DNA of 64,000 bases from Cloacibacillus sp. (GTDB lineage Bacteria; Synergistota; Synergistia; Synergistales; Synergistaceae): positions 1 through 64,000 of the forward strand of contig JAVVPF010000013.1 in assembly GCA_036655895.1 (NCBI GenBank), written 5' to 3'. The notes under the pieces were generated by a model, which was not told the DNA's origin, ran no database searches, and saw only the letters and a program-made list of their open reading frames with translations. Positions 45,144 to 50,578 of the stretch are shown one piece after another; within the stretch, counting starts at the first letter, position 1, and every line of letters starts with the position of its first letter. The position numbers and the translations under genes are program-made.

Positions 45144-46151
45144 CTATTTCAATACCGCGTCGATGACGCGCATGAAATTTTCACCAAGTATTGCAGCCGC
45201 TTCCTCTTCTGTGTATCTTGCGCGCACCTCGTCTATAAATTTCGCGCGCGCCTCCGCGTGGCTCGCAAAGAGGTCTGTATCTCCGTCGGGCGAATATCCC
45301 GCTTTCAATGCTTCAAGGCCGCTGCAAAGGTCGAAGCCAAGCCCCGCGTGTGCGGCCCCGCAAATGCGCACCACCCGGTCCAGGTGCTTAAGCAGAGCCT
45401 CCGCGTTCCGTTCTTCACGCCCGCTCGCCGCAAACGGGCCGAAGGCGTTCATTCCCATGACGCCGCCGTGCGCGGCAAGCTCTTTCATCTGCGCGTCCGA
45501 AAGGTTTCGCGGCGACGCGCAGAGGGCGCGGCAGTTTGAGTGGGAGGCGATATAGGGCGCGTCCGTCATCTCCGCGATCTCGCTTATGCCGGCGTCGTTC
45601 AAGTGGCTCACGTCTATTATCATGCCAAGCGCCATCGCGCGGCAGACAAGTTCGCGCCCGAAGTCCGTAAGCGAACCTTCAAAGCTGCCCGCCGTCCGTG
45701 GCAGGAACGAGATCCCGTCGCAGGCGTAGTTCCTGCGCGACCACGCAAGGCCCAGCATACGCACACCCAGCCGGTAAAAAATATCAAGCAGCAGCAGGTC
45801 GCGGCCGAGCGGCTCCGCGCCTTCGAGAGAAAGGAACATCGCAATTTTTCCAGAGGCCGCGGCCTCCCGGCACTCGCGCGCGCTTTTGCAGAGCATGAAC
45901 GAGGGGGAATCTTCAAGGTCGGCGTAAAAGGCCGATATTTGATCCAACGCGTTGCGCAGAGCGCCCTCCGGTACATAGGCGTCGTCGATGAAGACAGAAC
46001 AGACGAGCGCGTTCACGCCGCCCGCGCGAAGGTCGGGCAAAAATCTGCGTTCAAGCACGCTCCGCTCTCCGCGCAGGCGAAAGAGCAGCACATCCATCAA
46101 AAGGTCATAGTGAGCGTCGAGAACGATTGGAACCGTATTTTTTTTCGTCAT
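45144..46151 (-). CDS. M19 family membrane-dipeptidase-like protein
   Basis: Zinc dipeptidase of the renal-dipeptidase (M19) family, 335 aa. Metal-site motifs: VLDAHYDLLMD (~11-21, HxD), FLSLEGAEPLG (~111-121, bridging Glu), IIDVSHLNDAG (~183-193) and ASHSNCRAL (~206-214). No signal peptide, so probably cytoplasmic. ATG 46151 overlaps the upstream ThiF-like stop (ATGA), with GAGG 8 bases away. Probably cleaves dipeptides, in keeping with peptide fermentation. Confidence 0.88.
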   Translation of the reverse strand: MTKKNTVPIVLDAHYDLLMDVLLFRLRGERSVLERRFLPDLRAGGVNALVCSVFIDDAYVPEGALRNALDQISAFYADLEDSPSFMLCKSARECREAAASGKIAMFLSLEGAEPLGRDLLLLDIFYRLGVRMLGLAWSRRNYACDGISFLPRTAGSFEGSLTDFGRELVCRAMALGMIIDVSHLNDAGISEIAEMTDAPYIASHSNCRALCASPRNLSDAQMKELAAHGGVMGMNAFGPFAASGREERNAEALLKHLDRVVRICGAAHAGLGFDLCSGLEALKAGYSPDGDTDLFASHAEARAKFIDEVRARYTEEEAAAILGENFMRVIDAVLK

Positions 46152-47029
46152 ATTTTCAGCCTCTGCATGTCGCACCGCTTTAGGTCGAACCAGAGCAAAG
46201 AATGTTCCAACCGCCCTTCAAGCCCGGCGAGTATTTTTATAGTTTCGCACGCCTGTACCGCCGCTATAAAGGGCGGGATAAAAGGCGGATTGCCAGTTGA
46301 CAGCTCTATGCCGCGGTCGGGCGCGCCAGTCAGCTCCCACACGGGGCGGTCCTGCGGCGCAAGCACCGCGGCCTCTCCGTAAAAGCCGGCCACTGCCCCG
46401 TGCACGAAGGGGATATCAAGTTCGCGGCAGGCTTTAAAAAGCGCGCCCCGGGCGTCGTTGCCGTCAAGCGCGTCCACCGCAGCACTCGCCCCGGCAAGCA
46501 GCTCCCTGCCGTTTTCTTCGTTTATATAAAGAGGACGCGCCACCGCCTCTACCGCTCCGTTGACGCGCCTCACGCGCGCGGCGGCGGCCTCCGCCTTTGA
46601 AGCTCCGATGTTTTCCTCGTCACAGTAGAGCTGCCTGTTTAAATTATTATCGTCGAAGGAGTCTCCGTCTATCAAAATAAGACGCCCCACCCCGGCGCGC
46701 GCCAGCATCTCGACGATCCAGCCGCCGAGGCCCCCGCAGCCGGCTACGGCCGCGGCCGACTCAAGAAGACGCGCCTGCCCCTCCATGCCTATGACGCCTA
46801 TGTTTCGCGCGTAGCGCGAAGGGCAGAGGCCGCCGCGAAGCGCCAAGGCCTCCGCCGCGCGCGGCGACAGTCCAAAGCGCGCCGCGGCCTCGCGGCATCG
46901 TTTAAATGGAACAACCAAGAGACCGCCGCTTGTCTGCGCATAGTCTTTTATATAGTTTAGAAATCCTTCCGGCACGGCAGCTCCCCCGCTTATTTTTCTA
47001 TTTTTCGGCGCCTTCGCGCCGCGATTCAT
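46148..47029 (-). CDS. ThiF/MoeB/HesA family adenylyltransferase (E1-like)
   Basis: E1-like enzyme that adenylates the C-terminus of a small sulfur-carrier or ubiquitin-like protein, 293 aa. Nucleotide motif VAGCGGLGGWIVEML (~95-109) then LILIDGDSFDDNNLNRQLYC (~117-136; D..D..N.NRQ signature). No zinc CxxC pairs are visible, unlike MoeB. Residues 1-65 are an unusual basic extension. Upstream of the M19 dipeptidase by translational coupling. A partner sulfur carrier is not in the window. A role in sulfur transfer for a thiolated cofactor is inference. Confidence 0.78.
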   Translation of the reverse strand: MNRGAKAPKNRKISGGAAVPEGFLNYIKDYAQTSGGLLVVPFKRCREAAARFGLSPRAAEALALRGGLCPSRYARNIGVIGMEGQARLLESAAAVAGCGGLGGWIVEMLARAGVGRLILIDGDSFDDNNLNRQLYCDEENIGASKAEAAAARVRRVNGAVEAVARPLYINEENGRELLAGASAAVDALDGNDARGALFKACRELDIPFVHGAVAGFYGEAAVLAPQDRPVWELTGAPDRGIELSTGNPPFIPPFIAAVQACETIKILAGLEGRLEHSLLWFDLKRCDMQRLKI

Positions 47030-47173
47030 ATTTTACCGCATAAATATGCCGCTTTACACAATTATTGCGGTAAAAACCGTCTTTTTTCTTGCCTGATTTT
47101 TACAATATTCTGTTAAAATATAAGGCATAAATGACGGCTCTACTATGGTCAAGACAGTTCAGGAGGGATGCAG

Positions 47174-48826
47174 ATGACGCTCAGGTGTAAATCACAATTT
47201 TTTCTTGGAGTCATTCTATTATCGATATTATTACTTTTAGACGTAATTTTTAGCAACTTTTTGATCGACTCCGCGGCGCAGACGGACAGGGAACGAATGG
47301 CGCGCGACCTTTCACGCGCGATGGTGACGCTCAAAGGCGAGGCCCGCACTCTTTCGGCGATCGCCGGCAACTGGGCCTATTCAGACAAGAGCTGGGAATA
47401 CATGCGCGGGACAAATCCCGACTATCCCAACTCATACCTCAACCGTTCCGTGCTCACCGAGATCGGCATCTCCTCCATGATATTCCTGAACGACGATTAC
47501 AAGGTCAAGCTCTTCCGCGACTACAGCGCGCCTGACGACCAATCGTCGCCAGAAAGCGAATACGAGGCGCTCTTCAGTCACGACGGCGAGGACCTTTTAG
47601 CCAACCTCCCCGACGACGGCACAAGCGGCATCGTGATGAAGGGCGGCGAGCCAATCCTCTTCTCCGTGAAGCGCATACTGCGCTCCGACAAGAGCGGACC
47701 AGGGGCCGGCTACCTCATTGTGACGATGGCCTTCTCGCAGAAGATGATACACACGATCGGGCGCAATCTGCAATTCACCTTCGCCGTAGAACCGGTGGAT
47801 CACAAGAACGCAAAAGACGACCTGCCCCTTACCATCATTGACAACGTGCGGCGCAATTCCTTCATAACGGGCAAGATACTGGTCCGCGACCACGCAGGCA
47901 CTCCCGCCTTCTGGATATCGGGCATCGCGCCCAAAGTCGACATAAAATCCGCCGACAAGCAGCTGCAAAGGCTCTTCATGGTGCTTGGGCTCATAGCGCT
48001 CGTCATCGTCTACATCTTCGGTCTCTTTATGAAGTACCAGGTCACCAACAGGATGAAGCGGCTCCAGAAAGAGATAGAGATGATACGCGACGAGACGGTC
48101 AACGTGCGCCACATCACCATCGACGGCAAGAAAGACGAAATAGGCAGTATGCAGCGCACGCTAAACGACTGCATGGCCTTCTTCGACTTCAAGCAGGGCG
48201 AAAAGGCGTGGGCCGACGACATCACCATAGCCGTCTACAAACGCTTCACAGAGGCGGGGCGCAGAGTCTGCACAAAGACTCTCGAAGACATAGCTACGGC
48301 CTTCTCGCCGGGCGACGAAAAGTTCCGCGCCGCCATCACGCGCTGCGCGGCGACGACCCGCGATTTTGCGGCCGCGCTTGATATGCACGAAGAAGAGCTT
48401 ATCTACGTCTACTCCGGCGCTCTCTTCAGCCGCATAGGCATGCTCGCTCTGCCGTTCTCTATAAGGAACAAGACCTCGCGTCTTACGCCCTCTGAAGAGC
48501 GCGAGTTCAAAAAATACCCGATCAAATCAAAAGACTTCCTCGAAGAGGTCGAGCTTCTTCGTCCGGCCTCCACGATGGTCTACGCCTGGAATGAAAACTG
48601 GGACGGCTCGGGCTACCCTCAGGGGCTCTCCGGCAGCTCCATCCCCGTAGCGGCAAGGATATTCGCCATCGTTGACGCGTGGAACGAAATGACGCGCCCG
48701 TGGCCGGGAAGACGTCTGCCTCAGGACGACGAGGTAATAGAACGGCTGCGCGAGATGGGCGGCAAGAGGCTCGACCCGCAGCTCGTCGAAAAATTCATCG
48801 CCTTCATAACTAAGGAGAAAAAATAA
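47174..48826 (+). CDS. CHASE4-HAMP protein with degenerate HD-GYP domain
   Basis: 550-aa membrane sensor. TM1 at ~6-30; a CHASE4-type extracytoplasmic sensor (~35-255; includes GNWAYSDKSWEYM, SYLNRSVLTEIGISSMIFL); TM2 at ~265-285; then HAMP (~285-335). The C-terminal domain is clearly HD-GYP-derived: NWDGSGYPQGLSGSSIPVAA at ~475-494. Its metal/catalytic residues are gone: the HD pair is SR (LFSRIG, 417-422), the next His is Tyr (KKYPI) and HH before the GYP loop is AW. Phosphodiesterase activity is therefore unlikely; a cyclic-di-GMP or protein-binding receptor role is inferred. ATG 47174 fits the AGGAGG spacing (7) better than ATG 47168. Confidence 0.8.
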   Translation: MTLRCKSQFFLGVILLSILLLLDVIFSNFLIDSAAQTDRERMARDLSRAMVTLKGEARTLSAIAGNWAYSDKSWEYMRGTNPDYPNSYLNRSVLTEIGISSMIFLNDDYKVKLFRDYSAPDDQSSPESEYEALFSHDGEDLLANLPDDGTSGIVMKGGEPILFSVKRILRSDKSGPGAGYLIVTMAFSQKMIHTIGRNLQFTFAVEPVDHKNAKDDLPLTIIDNVRRNSFITGKILVRDHAGTPAFWISGIAPKVDIKSADKQLQRLFMVLGLIALVIVYIFGLFMKYQVTNRMKRLQKEIEMIRDETVNVRHITIDGKKDEIGSMQRTLNDCMAFFDFKQGEKAWADDITIAVYKRFTEAGRRVCTKTLEDIATAFSPGDEKFRAAITRCAATTRDFAAALDMHEEELIYVYSGALFSRIGMLALPFSIRNKTSRLTPSEEREFKKYPIKSKDFLEEVELLRPASTMVYAWNENWDGSGYPQGLSGSSIPVAARIFAIVDAWNEMTRPWPGRRLPQDDEVIERLREMGGKRLDPQLVEKFIAFITKEKK

Positions 48827-48828
48827 AA

Positions 48829-49401
48829 ATGGTTGAGCTTGACGCAAGAAAACTTGAATGTCCGAAGCCCGTCCTGCTGGTTAAGGACGAGGCCGATAGG
48901 GGCACGGAAAATATACGAGTCTGCGTGGACAACGAGGTCGCAGTAGCGAACGTGACGCGCTTTTTTGAAAGCCGCGGCTACGAGACAAGGCGCGAAGATA
49001 CGGCAGATGGCTTTTACGTAGCCGGCGTGAAAAATTCCAAAGCGGCGCCCGCAGCCCGTAAAAAAACTACGGCGGCGCTGCTTACATCCGACAAGCTGGG
49101 AGCCGCCTCCGACGGCCTCGGCGAGGTGCTGATGAAGGCCTACATTGGGACGCTCGTTAAGGCGGACGTCCCACCTTCCGCAGTCGCTTTGATGAACGAA
49201 GGCGTAAAGCTTGCGCTGCCTTCCTCTTCCGCCTGCGATTCGCTGAAGGAGCTGGAGGCGCGCGGCGTAAAGATACTCGTCTGCGGCACCTGCACTAATC
49301 ATTTCGGCATTACGGATAAAATCGGGGCCGGAGTTATCTCAAACATGTTTGAGATAACCGAAGCGGTATTTGGCGCGGAAAAATCCATAGTGCTCGGGTA
49401 A
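48829..49401 (+). CDS. yedF: YedF-type selenium metabolism sulfurtransferase
   Basis: 190-aa two-domain protein. An N-terminal TusA/SirA-like domain has the CPKP motif (LECPKPVLLVKDE, ~8-20). The C-terminal domain is DsrE/YedF-like with AALLTSDKLG, AYIGTLV, ALMNEGVKLAL and VLVCGTCTNHFG-like KILVCGTCTNHFG (~149-161). This architecture belongs to the YedF family tied to selenium metabolism in labile selenoenzyme clusters. It starts 2 bases after the HD-GYP-like gene and is followed 7 bases later by a cysteine desulfurase-like gene, its usual companion. Confidence 0.88.
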   Translation: MVELDARKLECPKPVLLVKDEADRGTENIRVCVDNEVAVANVTRFFESRGYETRREDTADGFYVAGVKNSKAAPAARKKTTAALLTSDKLGAASDGLGEVLMKAYIGTLVKADVPPSAVALMNEGVKLALPSSSACDSLKELEARGVKILVCGTCTNHFGITDKIGAGVISNMFEITEAVFGAEKSIVLG

Positions 49402-49408
49402 GGCAAGG

Positions 49409-50578
49409 ATGGCAAAAATCTATCTGAACAACGCCGCGACGACCTGGCCGAAGCCGGAGTGCGTCGCAAAGGCGGTTTTTGATTTTATGACCGACGGCGG
49501 CGCAAACGCCGCGCGAGGCTCGGCCTCGGAACGCGACCTAAAAAGCCTCGACGTGCTCTTTACGGCGCGCGCGAAGGCGGCTGCGCTCTTTGGCGGCTAC
49601 GCCAAGGCAAACCCGAAATACGTGACGCTCACCACAAACGTCACGCATTCGCTGAATATTGTCATAAAGGGCTTTGTGAAGCCGGGGATGCGCGTCGTAA
49701 CCACCTCGGTCGAACATAACTCCGTCATTCGCCCGCTGCGGGAGGCGCAGCAAAACGGCGCCTTTGTGAACGTCCTGCAATGCAGCTTAAAAGGCTATCT
49801 CGACCCACACGCGCTCAGCGAAGCGCTCTTTGAAGATACGGACCTCGTAATAATGACGCACTGCAGCAACGTATGCGGCTCGGTGCAGCCCATCGAAGAG
49901 GCCGCCCAGATATGCGCGCGCCGCGGCGTGCCGCTCGTGCTTGACTGCGCGCAGACCGGCGGTCTGCTGCCAATAGACGCGGAGGCCCTCGGCGTCGCTG
50001 CGATCTGCTTCACCGGGCACAAGGGGCTTTTCGGGCCGCAGGGCACAGGCGGCATAGTGTGGAACCCGGAGTTTGCGGAAAAATGCTCGCCGTTCATAGT
50101 AGGCGGTACGGGCAGCCTCTCCCACGAGGAGACGCAGCCCGTAGCGATGCCGGACAAATTCGAGGCCGGAACGCCGAACCTGCCTGGGATCGCGGGGCTT
50201 GACGCCGCGCTTGAATGGATCGAAGCAACCGGCGTCGACAAAATAAAAAAACGCGAAGAGAAGTTGGGCGACAGGCTCGAAGAGGGCCTGCTCTCAATAG
50301 ACGGAGTGAGGCTGCTGGGCGCGGCTCATAAAGAGGCGCCGCGGCTGCCAGTTTACGCCTTCAACATCGCAGGCATGGACAACGGCGTGCTGGCAAGCAG
50401 ACTAAGCGAACGCTACGGAGTGGAAAGCCGTCCCGGCCTCCACTGCTCGCCGCTCGCCCACCGCACGCTTGGCTCTTTCCCCGAGGGCGCGCTGCGCCTC
50501 TCCCCCGGCTGGTTTTCCACCGAAGAGGAGATAGATCGCGCCATTTTCGCGATAAAAGAGCTTGCCGCAAAAAAATAA
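49409..50578 (+). CDS. Class V aminotransferase/cysteine desulfurase (selenium-linked EF2568 group)
   Basis: PLP enzyme, 389 aa, related to SufS/CsdB. It begins IYLNNAATTWPKPECV, with TSVEHNSVIRPL (~94-105), DCAQTGGLLPID (~184-195) and the PLP-lysine site FTGHKGLFGPQGTGG (~203-217; K in GHKG). A C-terminal active-site Cys region is RPGLHCSPLAHRTLG. Adjacent to yedF and after a ThiF-like gene, the arrangement resembles the EF2568-type desulfurase that accompanies selenium-dependent molybdenum hydroxylase maturation. Probably releases S or Se from cysteine or selenocysteine. Confidence 0.85.
   Translation: MAKIYLNNAATTWPKPECVAKAVFDFMTDGGANAARGSASERDLKSLDVLFTARAKAAALFGGYAKANPKYVTLTTNVTHSLNIVIKGFVKPGMRVVTTSVEHNSVIRPLREAQQNGAFVNVLQCSLKGYLDPHALSEALFEDTDLVIMTHCSNVCGSVQPIEEAAQICARRGVPLVLDCAQTGGLLPIDAEALGVAAICFTGHKGLFGPQGTGGIVWNPEFAEKCSPFIVGGTGSLSHEETQPVAMPDKFEAGTPNLPGIAGLDAALEWIEATGVDKIKKREEKLGDRLEEGLLSIDGVRLLGAAHKEAPRLPVYAFNIAGMDNGVLASRLSERYGVESRPGLHCSPLAHRTLGSFPEGALRLSPGWFSTEEEIDRAIFAIKELAAKK

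Follow-up and report, generated by a model that had tools for sequence, protein, structure and literature searches.

Dead HD-GYP domains are already known, and both PA2572 (YN-GYP) and Bd1817 (PDB 3tm8) are counted among the inactive or degenerate proteins of this kind. Bd1817 is without the tyrosine of the GYP motif, yet it has been used for insight on metal binding (PMC4159591). The same source describes the active phosphodiesterase PmGH (PDB 4mcw), whose metal ligands are E185, H189, H221, D222, H250, H276, H277 and D305; alanine at six of these eight positions essentially abolished activity, D183, K225 and D308 matter near the metal site, and R314 and K317 join in the binding of cyclic-di-GMP [c-di-GMP] (PMC4159591). 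The structurally explained dead domain is that of DvhD from Desulfovibrio vulgaris (PDB 9rbz, 9rc0), in which HD is replaced by SQ and HH by MN and which has no phosphodiesterase activity; it is reported to bind c-di-GMP still, without metal, via Y652, L577, M646, E668, Y621, K582, R650 and Y523 (PMC13090378). LapD, in which HAMP is combined with a dead GGDEF-EAL module, is described as another membrane receptor built on a dead c-di-GMP enzyme (PMC13090378). As for CHASE4 proteins, IsmP is reported to act by binding a partner protein, a diguanylate cyclase, in response to iron (PMC10904736).

YedF has been reported to co-occur strongly with SelD, and the regulation of selenium delivery is described as not fully understood (PMC5322559). 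The main text of that paper, which treats YedF and selenocysteine lyase, contains no HD-GYP; in the openly licensed PubMed Central literature, HD-GYP was not found together with YedF or selenocysteine lyase, and a search for Synergistetes with HD-GYP returned only a paper on a manganese transporter. Here we analyze a locus of Cloacibacillus sp. in which a CHASE4 membrane sensor with a degenerate HD-GYP domain is encoded next to selenium genes.

Gene Structure and Domain Layout of the Sensor

The window (the whole stretch of DNA that was analyzed, 64,000 nucleotides) carries the sensor gene on its forward strand, with the following parts:

47168..48826, + strand: CHASE4-(HAMP)-pseudo-HD-GYP membrane sensor gene, an open reading frame of 552 aa, found in 20 orthologous genomes
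47161..47166, + strand: AGGAGG resembling a Shine-Dalgarno motif, lying 7 bases ahead of the ATG at 47174 and only 1 base ahead of 47168
47330..47785, + strand: CHASE4 extracytoplasmic sensor domain, aa 55-206 (Pfam PF05228, 3.1e-20; model against the solved CHASE4 domains 8z84, 8z6n and 8wct, Z 13.3-13.5)
48035..48169, + strand: HAMP-like linker, aa 290-334 (PF00672, E 0.0045, 17.7 bits against a Pfam cut-off of 25; model confidence low at 305-334)
48326..48784, + strand: pseudo-HD-GYP domain (HD_5, PF13487, aa 388-539, 8e-31, 110.7 bits; model against PmGH 4mcw, Z 23.1, rmsd 2.0, 192 residues)

The likelier start of the reading frame is the second ATG, at 47174, which was also the choice of the original prediction, and not 47168; it is preferred because of the spacing of the AGGAGG and because residue M3, encoded at 47174, is invariant in 17 aligned relatives. 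Residue numbers of the sensor are counted from 47168 throughout. CHASE4 is flanked by membrane-spanning helices, seen as long helices at 5-70 and 260-309 in the model and as hydrophobic stretches in the sequence, and the linker that follows is likely a HAMP region, matched weakly and below the Pfam cut-off. The structural modeling suggested with the original prediction was carried out, and the C-terminal domain has the HD-GYP fold by both its Pfam match and its fold match to 4mcw. The AlphaFold2 model, made from 17 orthologs, has a pLDDT of 78.1 and a pTM of 0.45, and the arrangement of the domains is therefore unsure. No Rfam match and no tRNA was found within the window, and promoter or terminator patterns around the sensor gene did not rise above the level of shuffled sequence.

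Loss of the Active Site

The motifs at which the domain was compared with active HD-GYP phosphodiesterases, numbered in brackets as in PmGH, are these:

48428..48433, + strand: HD (H221-D222) replaced by S421-R422; S, A or N and R or K in 19/19 orthologs compared, H and D in 12/12 intact domains
48515..48517, + strand: metal-ligand His (H250) replaced by Y450; Y in 19/19 orthologs, H in 12/12 intact domains
48587..48592, + strand: HH pair (H276-H277) replaced by W474-N475; W in 17/19 (C in 2), N in 17/19 (K and R in 1 each), HH in 12/12 intact domains
48611..48619, + strand: GYP motif G482-Y483-P484, within WDGSGYP; GFP in 18/19 orthologs, GYP in the window protein only
48680..48712, + strand: lineage signature W505-N-E-x-T-R-P-W-x-G-R515, replacing the usual DALTSxRPYR region; W505, E507, R510 and G514 invariant in 19 orthologs

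In the alignment with PmGH, seven of the eight metal ligands are lost, E185 and H189 being replaced by K385 and A389, and the sole survivor is D305 (D503 in the sensor). Around the metal site D183 is kept as D383, K225 and D308 have become M425 and N506, and the c-di-GMP-binding residues R314 and K317 correspond to W512 and R515. None of the 19 orthologs compared retains either HD residue, H189, H250 or either of the HH histidines; this set includes the window protein as its 19th row and omits G005, which in this domain has the same reading as G006, and the second copy of G003. In this set D503 varies (D in 13, N in 3, E in 2, H in 1), 18 of 19 have W at 512, and Y450 and G514 are invariant. 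The domain carries a signature of its own, WNE together with WNExTRPWxGR. All 12 intact HD-GYP domains of the family (L032 and L035 omitted as near-copies of L031), among which are the four other HD-GYP domains of the window's genome, keep HD, the KH histidine, HH, the GYP tyrosine, R314 and the RPY tyrosine. Among the 29 columns whose conservation in the intact domains reaches 90% or more, eight of the nine catalytic or ligand columns are changed in the orthologs vs. five of the 20 others, and one of those five (514) corresponds to a c-di-GMP contact of DvhD. Judged by these residues, the HD-GYP-fold domain of the sensor is very probably no longer a phosphodiesterase.

The original prediction had read SR in place of the metal-binding HD and tyrosine in place of a further histidine, and both readings hold in the alignment, the loss of these residues being shared by all 19 orthologs. 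Its reading of the HH pair as AW has to be corrected, as the pair aligns with W474-N475 and not with A473-W474. The GYP loop that it called preserved is present as described in the window protein, but as GFP in nearly all relatives.

Distribution, Conservation and Selection

Full-length orthologs were found in 20 of the 52 Synergistaceae genomes searched, the window's genome included, at 41-100% identity. A search of 185 genomes of the phylum returned 21 that passed E <= 1e-60, namely these 20 and G001, whose HD-GYP domain is intact; the 133 genomes of the phylum outside the 52 gave no ortholog at this threshold, and all ortholog holders thus belong to one family. An alignment-based scan of named genomes found 11 loci, which belong to Synergistaceae MAGs or assemblies, to 'Candidatus Caccocola faecipullorum' and to a Synergistes sp., and the scan of named genomes with a single protein as query gave no match. 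The conversion of an enzyme into a conserved non-enzyme, put forward in the original prediction, is well supported: the conservation of the substitutions was checked, and the same class of replacements occurs in all 20 orthologous genomes. Chance or misreading of the replacements is ruled out by this conservation across orthologs, and a recent loss in one genome by the fact that 20 genomes share them.

Mean pairwise identity over 171 pairs is highest in the pseudo-HD-GYP domain (0.61), followed by the N-terminal 54 residues (0.60), CHASE4 and the HAMP region (0.56 each) and residues 212-289 (0.46). The pN/pS ratio of the pseudo-HD-GYP domain is 0.09-0.32 over nine species pairs, and it is well below 1 in every domain of the sensor. 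Being conserved at low pN/pS, the domain is therefore under purifying selection for something other than an enzyme, and the sensor is a functional pseudoenzyme, not a pseudogene.

In the domain tree the orthologs form one clade with 100/100 support on a long stem. Three further genomes (G001, G049 and G051) encode distant CHASE4-HD-GYP proteins of 25-28% identity with intact active sites, in which HD_5 and CHASE4 are both over the cut-off (L026, L028 and L027, respectively); the tree does not place them as sister group of the orthologs, and long branches meet there. These three proteins are possible active counterparts, and in the two contexts examined (L053, L054) they do not stand beside yedF. 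Note also that the G003 MAG (87% complete, 6% contamination) holds two copies of the sensor, on C85 and C200, which reflect either a duplicate or mixed strains.

Selenium Neighbors and Gene Linkage

The neighbors of the sensor gene are as follows:

48829..49401, + strand: yedF, separated from the sensor gene by 2 bases and coding for a selenium-associated TusA-DsrE protein (TIGR03527, 169.9 bits, cut-off 110)
49409..50578, + strand: cysteine desulfurase family/selenocysteine-lyase-like gene (TIGR01977, 384.3 bits, cut-off 377; SclA model 347.2, below its cut-off of 525)
46148..47029, - strand: divergent ThiF/E1-like gene (PF00899, 2.2e-45), 130-1481 bases from the sensor gene in relatives

The position next to selenium genes, noticed in the original prediction, is confirmed and conserved. 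yedF lies directly downstream in 19 of the 20 orthologous genomes, often within 3 bases of the sensor gene or overlapping it in the relatives; in the remaining one, G045, the desulfurase gene directly follows the sensor and no yedF was found there, and in G047 the contig breaks inside yedF. Either YedF or the desulfurase thus follows the sensor in 20 of 20 genomes (the window's own locus, G005 and 18 others). The ThiF/E1-like gene is probably a neighbor outside the sensor unit: of the 18 loci measured in relatives, 12 contain it, seven of them within 430 bases of the sensor gene and five at a distance of 1.2-1.5 kb, and some of the six loci without it end too early to tell. Its stand-alone product reached no NCBIfam cut-off, and the gene adjoins that of an M19 dipeptidase, a pair kept in many relatives.

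SelD is over the cut-off in 17 of the 20 holders of the sensor and tRNA-Sec is found in 17, all 20 having at least one of the two and the window's own genome both; at least one also occurs in 17 of the 32 genomes without the sensor, and as these genomes are related the counts are not independent. The SelD gene of the window's genome (G000:C3:80102-81028, outside the window) contains a single in-frame TGA, a feature shared by most relatives, and SelD is therefore probably itself a selenoprotein. YedF is over the cut-off in 10 genomes without the sensor, in at least four of which (G001, G040, G049 and G050) the desulfurase gene comes directly after it, so that an existing pair either gained the sensor or lost it. 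In the sensor-less loci L060, L061 and L062 (G049-G051), the gene that comes after yedF and the desulfurase gene encodes a membrane protein, which we take to resemble the selenium-associated YedE.

The most divergent holder, G018, deserves separate mention. Its YedF is without the CPxP cysteine and the CGxC motif (L052), yet sensor and YedF are still full-length adjacent ORFs; no SelD over the cut-off was found in this genome, and no desulfurase ortholog (best match 32%) in a search that took in eight genomes. Such a state would suit a non-catalytic partnership, in which sensor and YedF stay paired although the chemistry of YedF is no longer required; it could instead be early decay, and it is found in one genome only.

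Proposed Mechanism

Our preferred reading, to which we give a rough probability of one half, is that the protein is a transmembrane one-component sensor whose dead domain signals by contact with a partner, likeliest YedF or the desulfurase, and so tunes selenium or sulfur transfer. We infer a signal, a relay and a contact: CHASE4 would read a signal outside the membrane, which would be passed on, probably via the HAMP-like helix, to the cytoplasmic pseudo-HD-GYP domain, where conserved aromatic and charged residues appear to have reshaped the old metal and nucleotide pocket. The output would be a change in how the pseudo-HD-GYP domain touches a partner. Gene linkage makes YedF and the cysteine desulfurase/selenocysteine-lyase-like enzyme, both encoded alongside, the best candidates for that partner, and through them selenium (or sulfur) transfer would be adjusted to the outside signal. 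IsmP sets a precedent here, as a CHASE4 protein working through protein contact. It counts against the selenium partners that neither is universal (G045 is without yedF and G018 without a desulfurase ortholog) and that YedF-desulfurase pairs without the sensor exist in at least four genomes. We regard as possible, and hold more tentatively, a receptor for selenium status or another outside signal in which the HD-GYP domain left c-di-GMP signaling altogether and serves, at the membrane, as a docking site through which YedF and the selenocysteine-lyase-like enzyme are controlled.

On this more tentative reading, the sensor would carry an HD-GYP-derived, protein-only output domain that is maintained even in genomes in which no c-di-GMP system was detected. 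Having lost most c-di-GMP contacts and persisting without any detected c-di-GMP system, the sensor clade allows the HD-GYP fold to be tested cleanly as a pure protein-signaling domain, and it is a candidate for coupling selenium delivery to an outside signal.

Alternative Explanations

The sensor could be of the docking type with its true partner elsewhere, the selenium genes being mere neighbors and their linkage conserved gene order within one family. The wider block is syntenic too (YbaK, permease-like 'Gate', M19, ThiF, LemA, DUF2207 and GH18 genes), which weakens the linkage argument, and the linkage of sensor and selenium genes may be partly inherited gene order; the restriction of all holders to one family and the fact that either downstream gene can be absent point the same way. 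However, the downstream unit, with YedF or the desulfurase in 20/20 genomes, is steadier than the upstream ThiF gene with its 12/18 loci, and we consider this alternative doubtful.

Rather doubtful, too, is a cytoplasmic ligand receptor, in which the remodeled pocket would bind some other small molecule such as a nucleotide or a metabolite of selenium or sulfur. The occupants of the former ligand positions are non-random, Y450, W474, N475, W505, E507, R510 and W512 all being conserved, but the same residues could merely fill the old pocket for stability. Among the matches listed in the PDB sequence and fold searches there is no solved structure with the sensor's signature, an absence of no evidential weight on its own, and hence no ligand-bound homolog that shares it.

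A third possibility is a receptor resembling DvhD or LapD, whose dead domain would bind c-di-GMP without metal and switch the dimer, perhaps inside-out toward the periplasmic CHASE4. DvhD, which is likewise dead (SQ, MN) and nevertheless a metal-free c-di-GMP binder (PMC13090378), is one of the solved structures that the model resembles most (Z 19.8, rmsd 3.2, 197 residues), and one clade with DvhD is disfavoured, not rejected, at a p-AU of 0.096, the tree placing DvhD elsewhere on a long branch. Of its eight canonical-site contact positions, three are kept in the window protein, L577, M646 and Y621 corresponding to L439, M508 and Y483; the last of these, however, is F in 18 of the 19 orthologs. 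The five polar contacts R650, Y652, K582, E668 and Y523 are all absent, replaced by W512, G514, E444, M530 and K385, while at W512 and G514 all 12 intact domains have R and Y.

The gene also persists under constraint where c-di-GMP proteins were not detected. In G004 (99% complete) no GGDEF (best E 0.16), EAL or PilZ was found, and the sole HD_5 match is the sensor ortholog; in G003, of the same genus and 87% complete, GGDEF, EAL and PilZ were likewise not found, and the two HD_5 matches fit the two sensor copies. The PilZ and EAL searches behind these absences covered 10 of the 52 genomes, and one further domain search covered five. G004 keeps the three-gene unit of sensor, yedF and desulfurase gene, and the pN/pS of the pseudo-HD-GYP domain between G003 and G004 is 0.134. 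The search for GGDEF and EAL proteins that the original prediction had called for gave 30 GGDEF and 11 EAL matches in the window's own genome, so that c-di-GMP is available there. As most ligand contacts are lost and the gene persists without GGDEF, EAL and PilZ, c-di-GMP sensing is disfavoured, and, in view of the matches in the window's genome, it is disfavoured only, not excluded; the pseudo-HD-GYP domain is probably no longer a c-di-GMP domain, and we regard a c-di-GMP receptor as unlikely. Where the original prediction spoke of a receptor or protein-docking domain, conversion to a conserved non-enzyme thus stands, the c-di-GMP receptor half is disfavoured, and the docking half would correspond to the protein-contact reading preferred here.

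Residual enzymatic activity with an unusual metal site is highly improbable: the equivalents of D305 and D183 (D503 and D383) are kept in the window protein, but HD, H189, H250 and HH are all replaced in 19/19 orthologs, and D503 itself is variable. A decaying pseudogene, for which the 41% identity of the G018 copy might be cited, is hardly conceivable: the frame is open over its full length in 20 genomes, and in each of the domains pN/pS stays far below 1.

Comparison With Known Systems

The sensor shares with PmGH the same fold (Z 23.1), but differently from that active phosphodiesterase it is without seven of the eight metal ligands and without R314. The fold match to Bd1817, like the sensor a degenerate HD-GYP protein, is at Z 15.5. 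The resemblance to LapD lies in the combination of a membrane receptor with a dead c-di-GMP enzyme module; the output domains differ, and LapD still binds c-di-GMP. On the outer side of the membrane, the sensor model matches the CHASE4 domain of IsmP (PDB 8wct) at Z 13.3, the partner of IsmP being a diguanylate cyclase. DvhD and the sensor are both membrane proteins that combine a sensor-type domain in the periplasm with an HD-GYP domain in the cytoplasm whose HD and HH are replaced, but DvhD has dCache and PAS domains and a Lap-like adhesin operon, where the sensor has CHASE4 and selenium genes. What is new in comparison with DvhD, which still binds c-di-GMP, is a clade confined to one family in which most c-di-GMP contacts have been lost as well and which persists without any detected c-di-GMP system.
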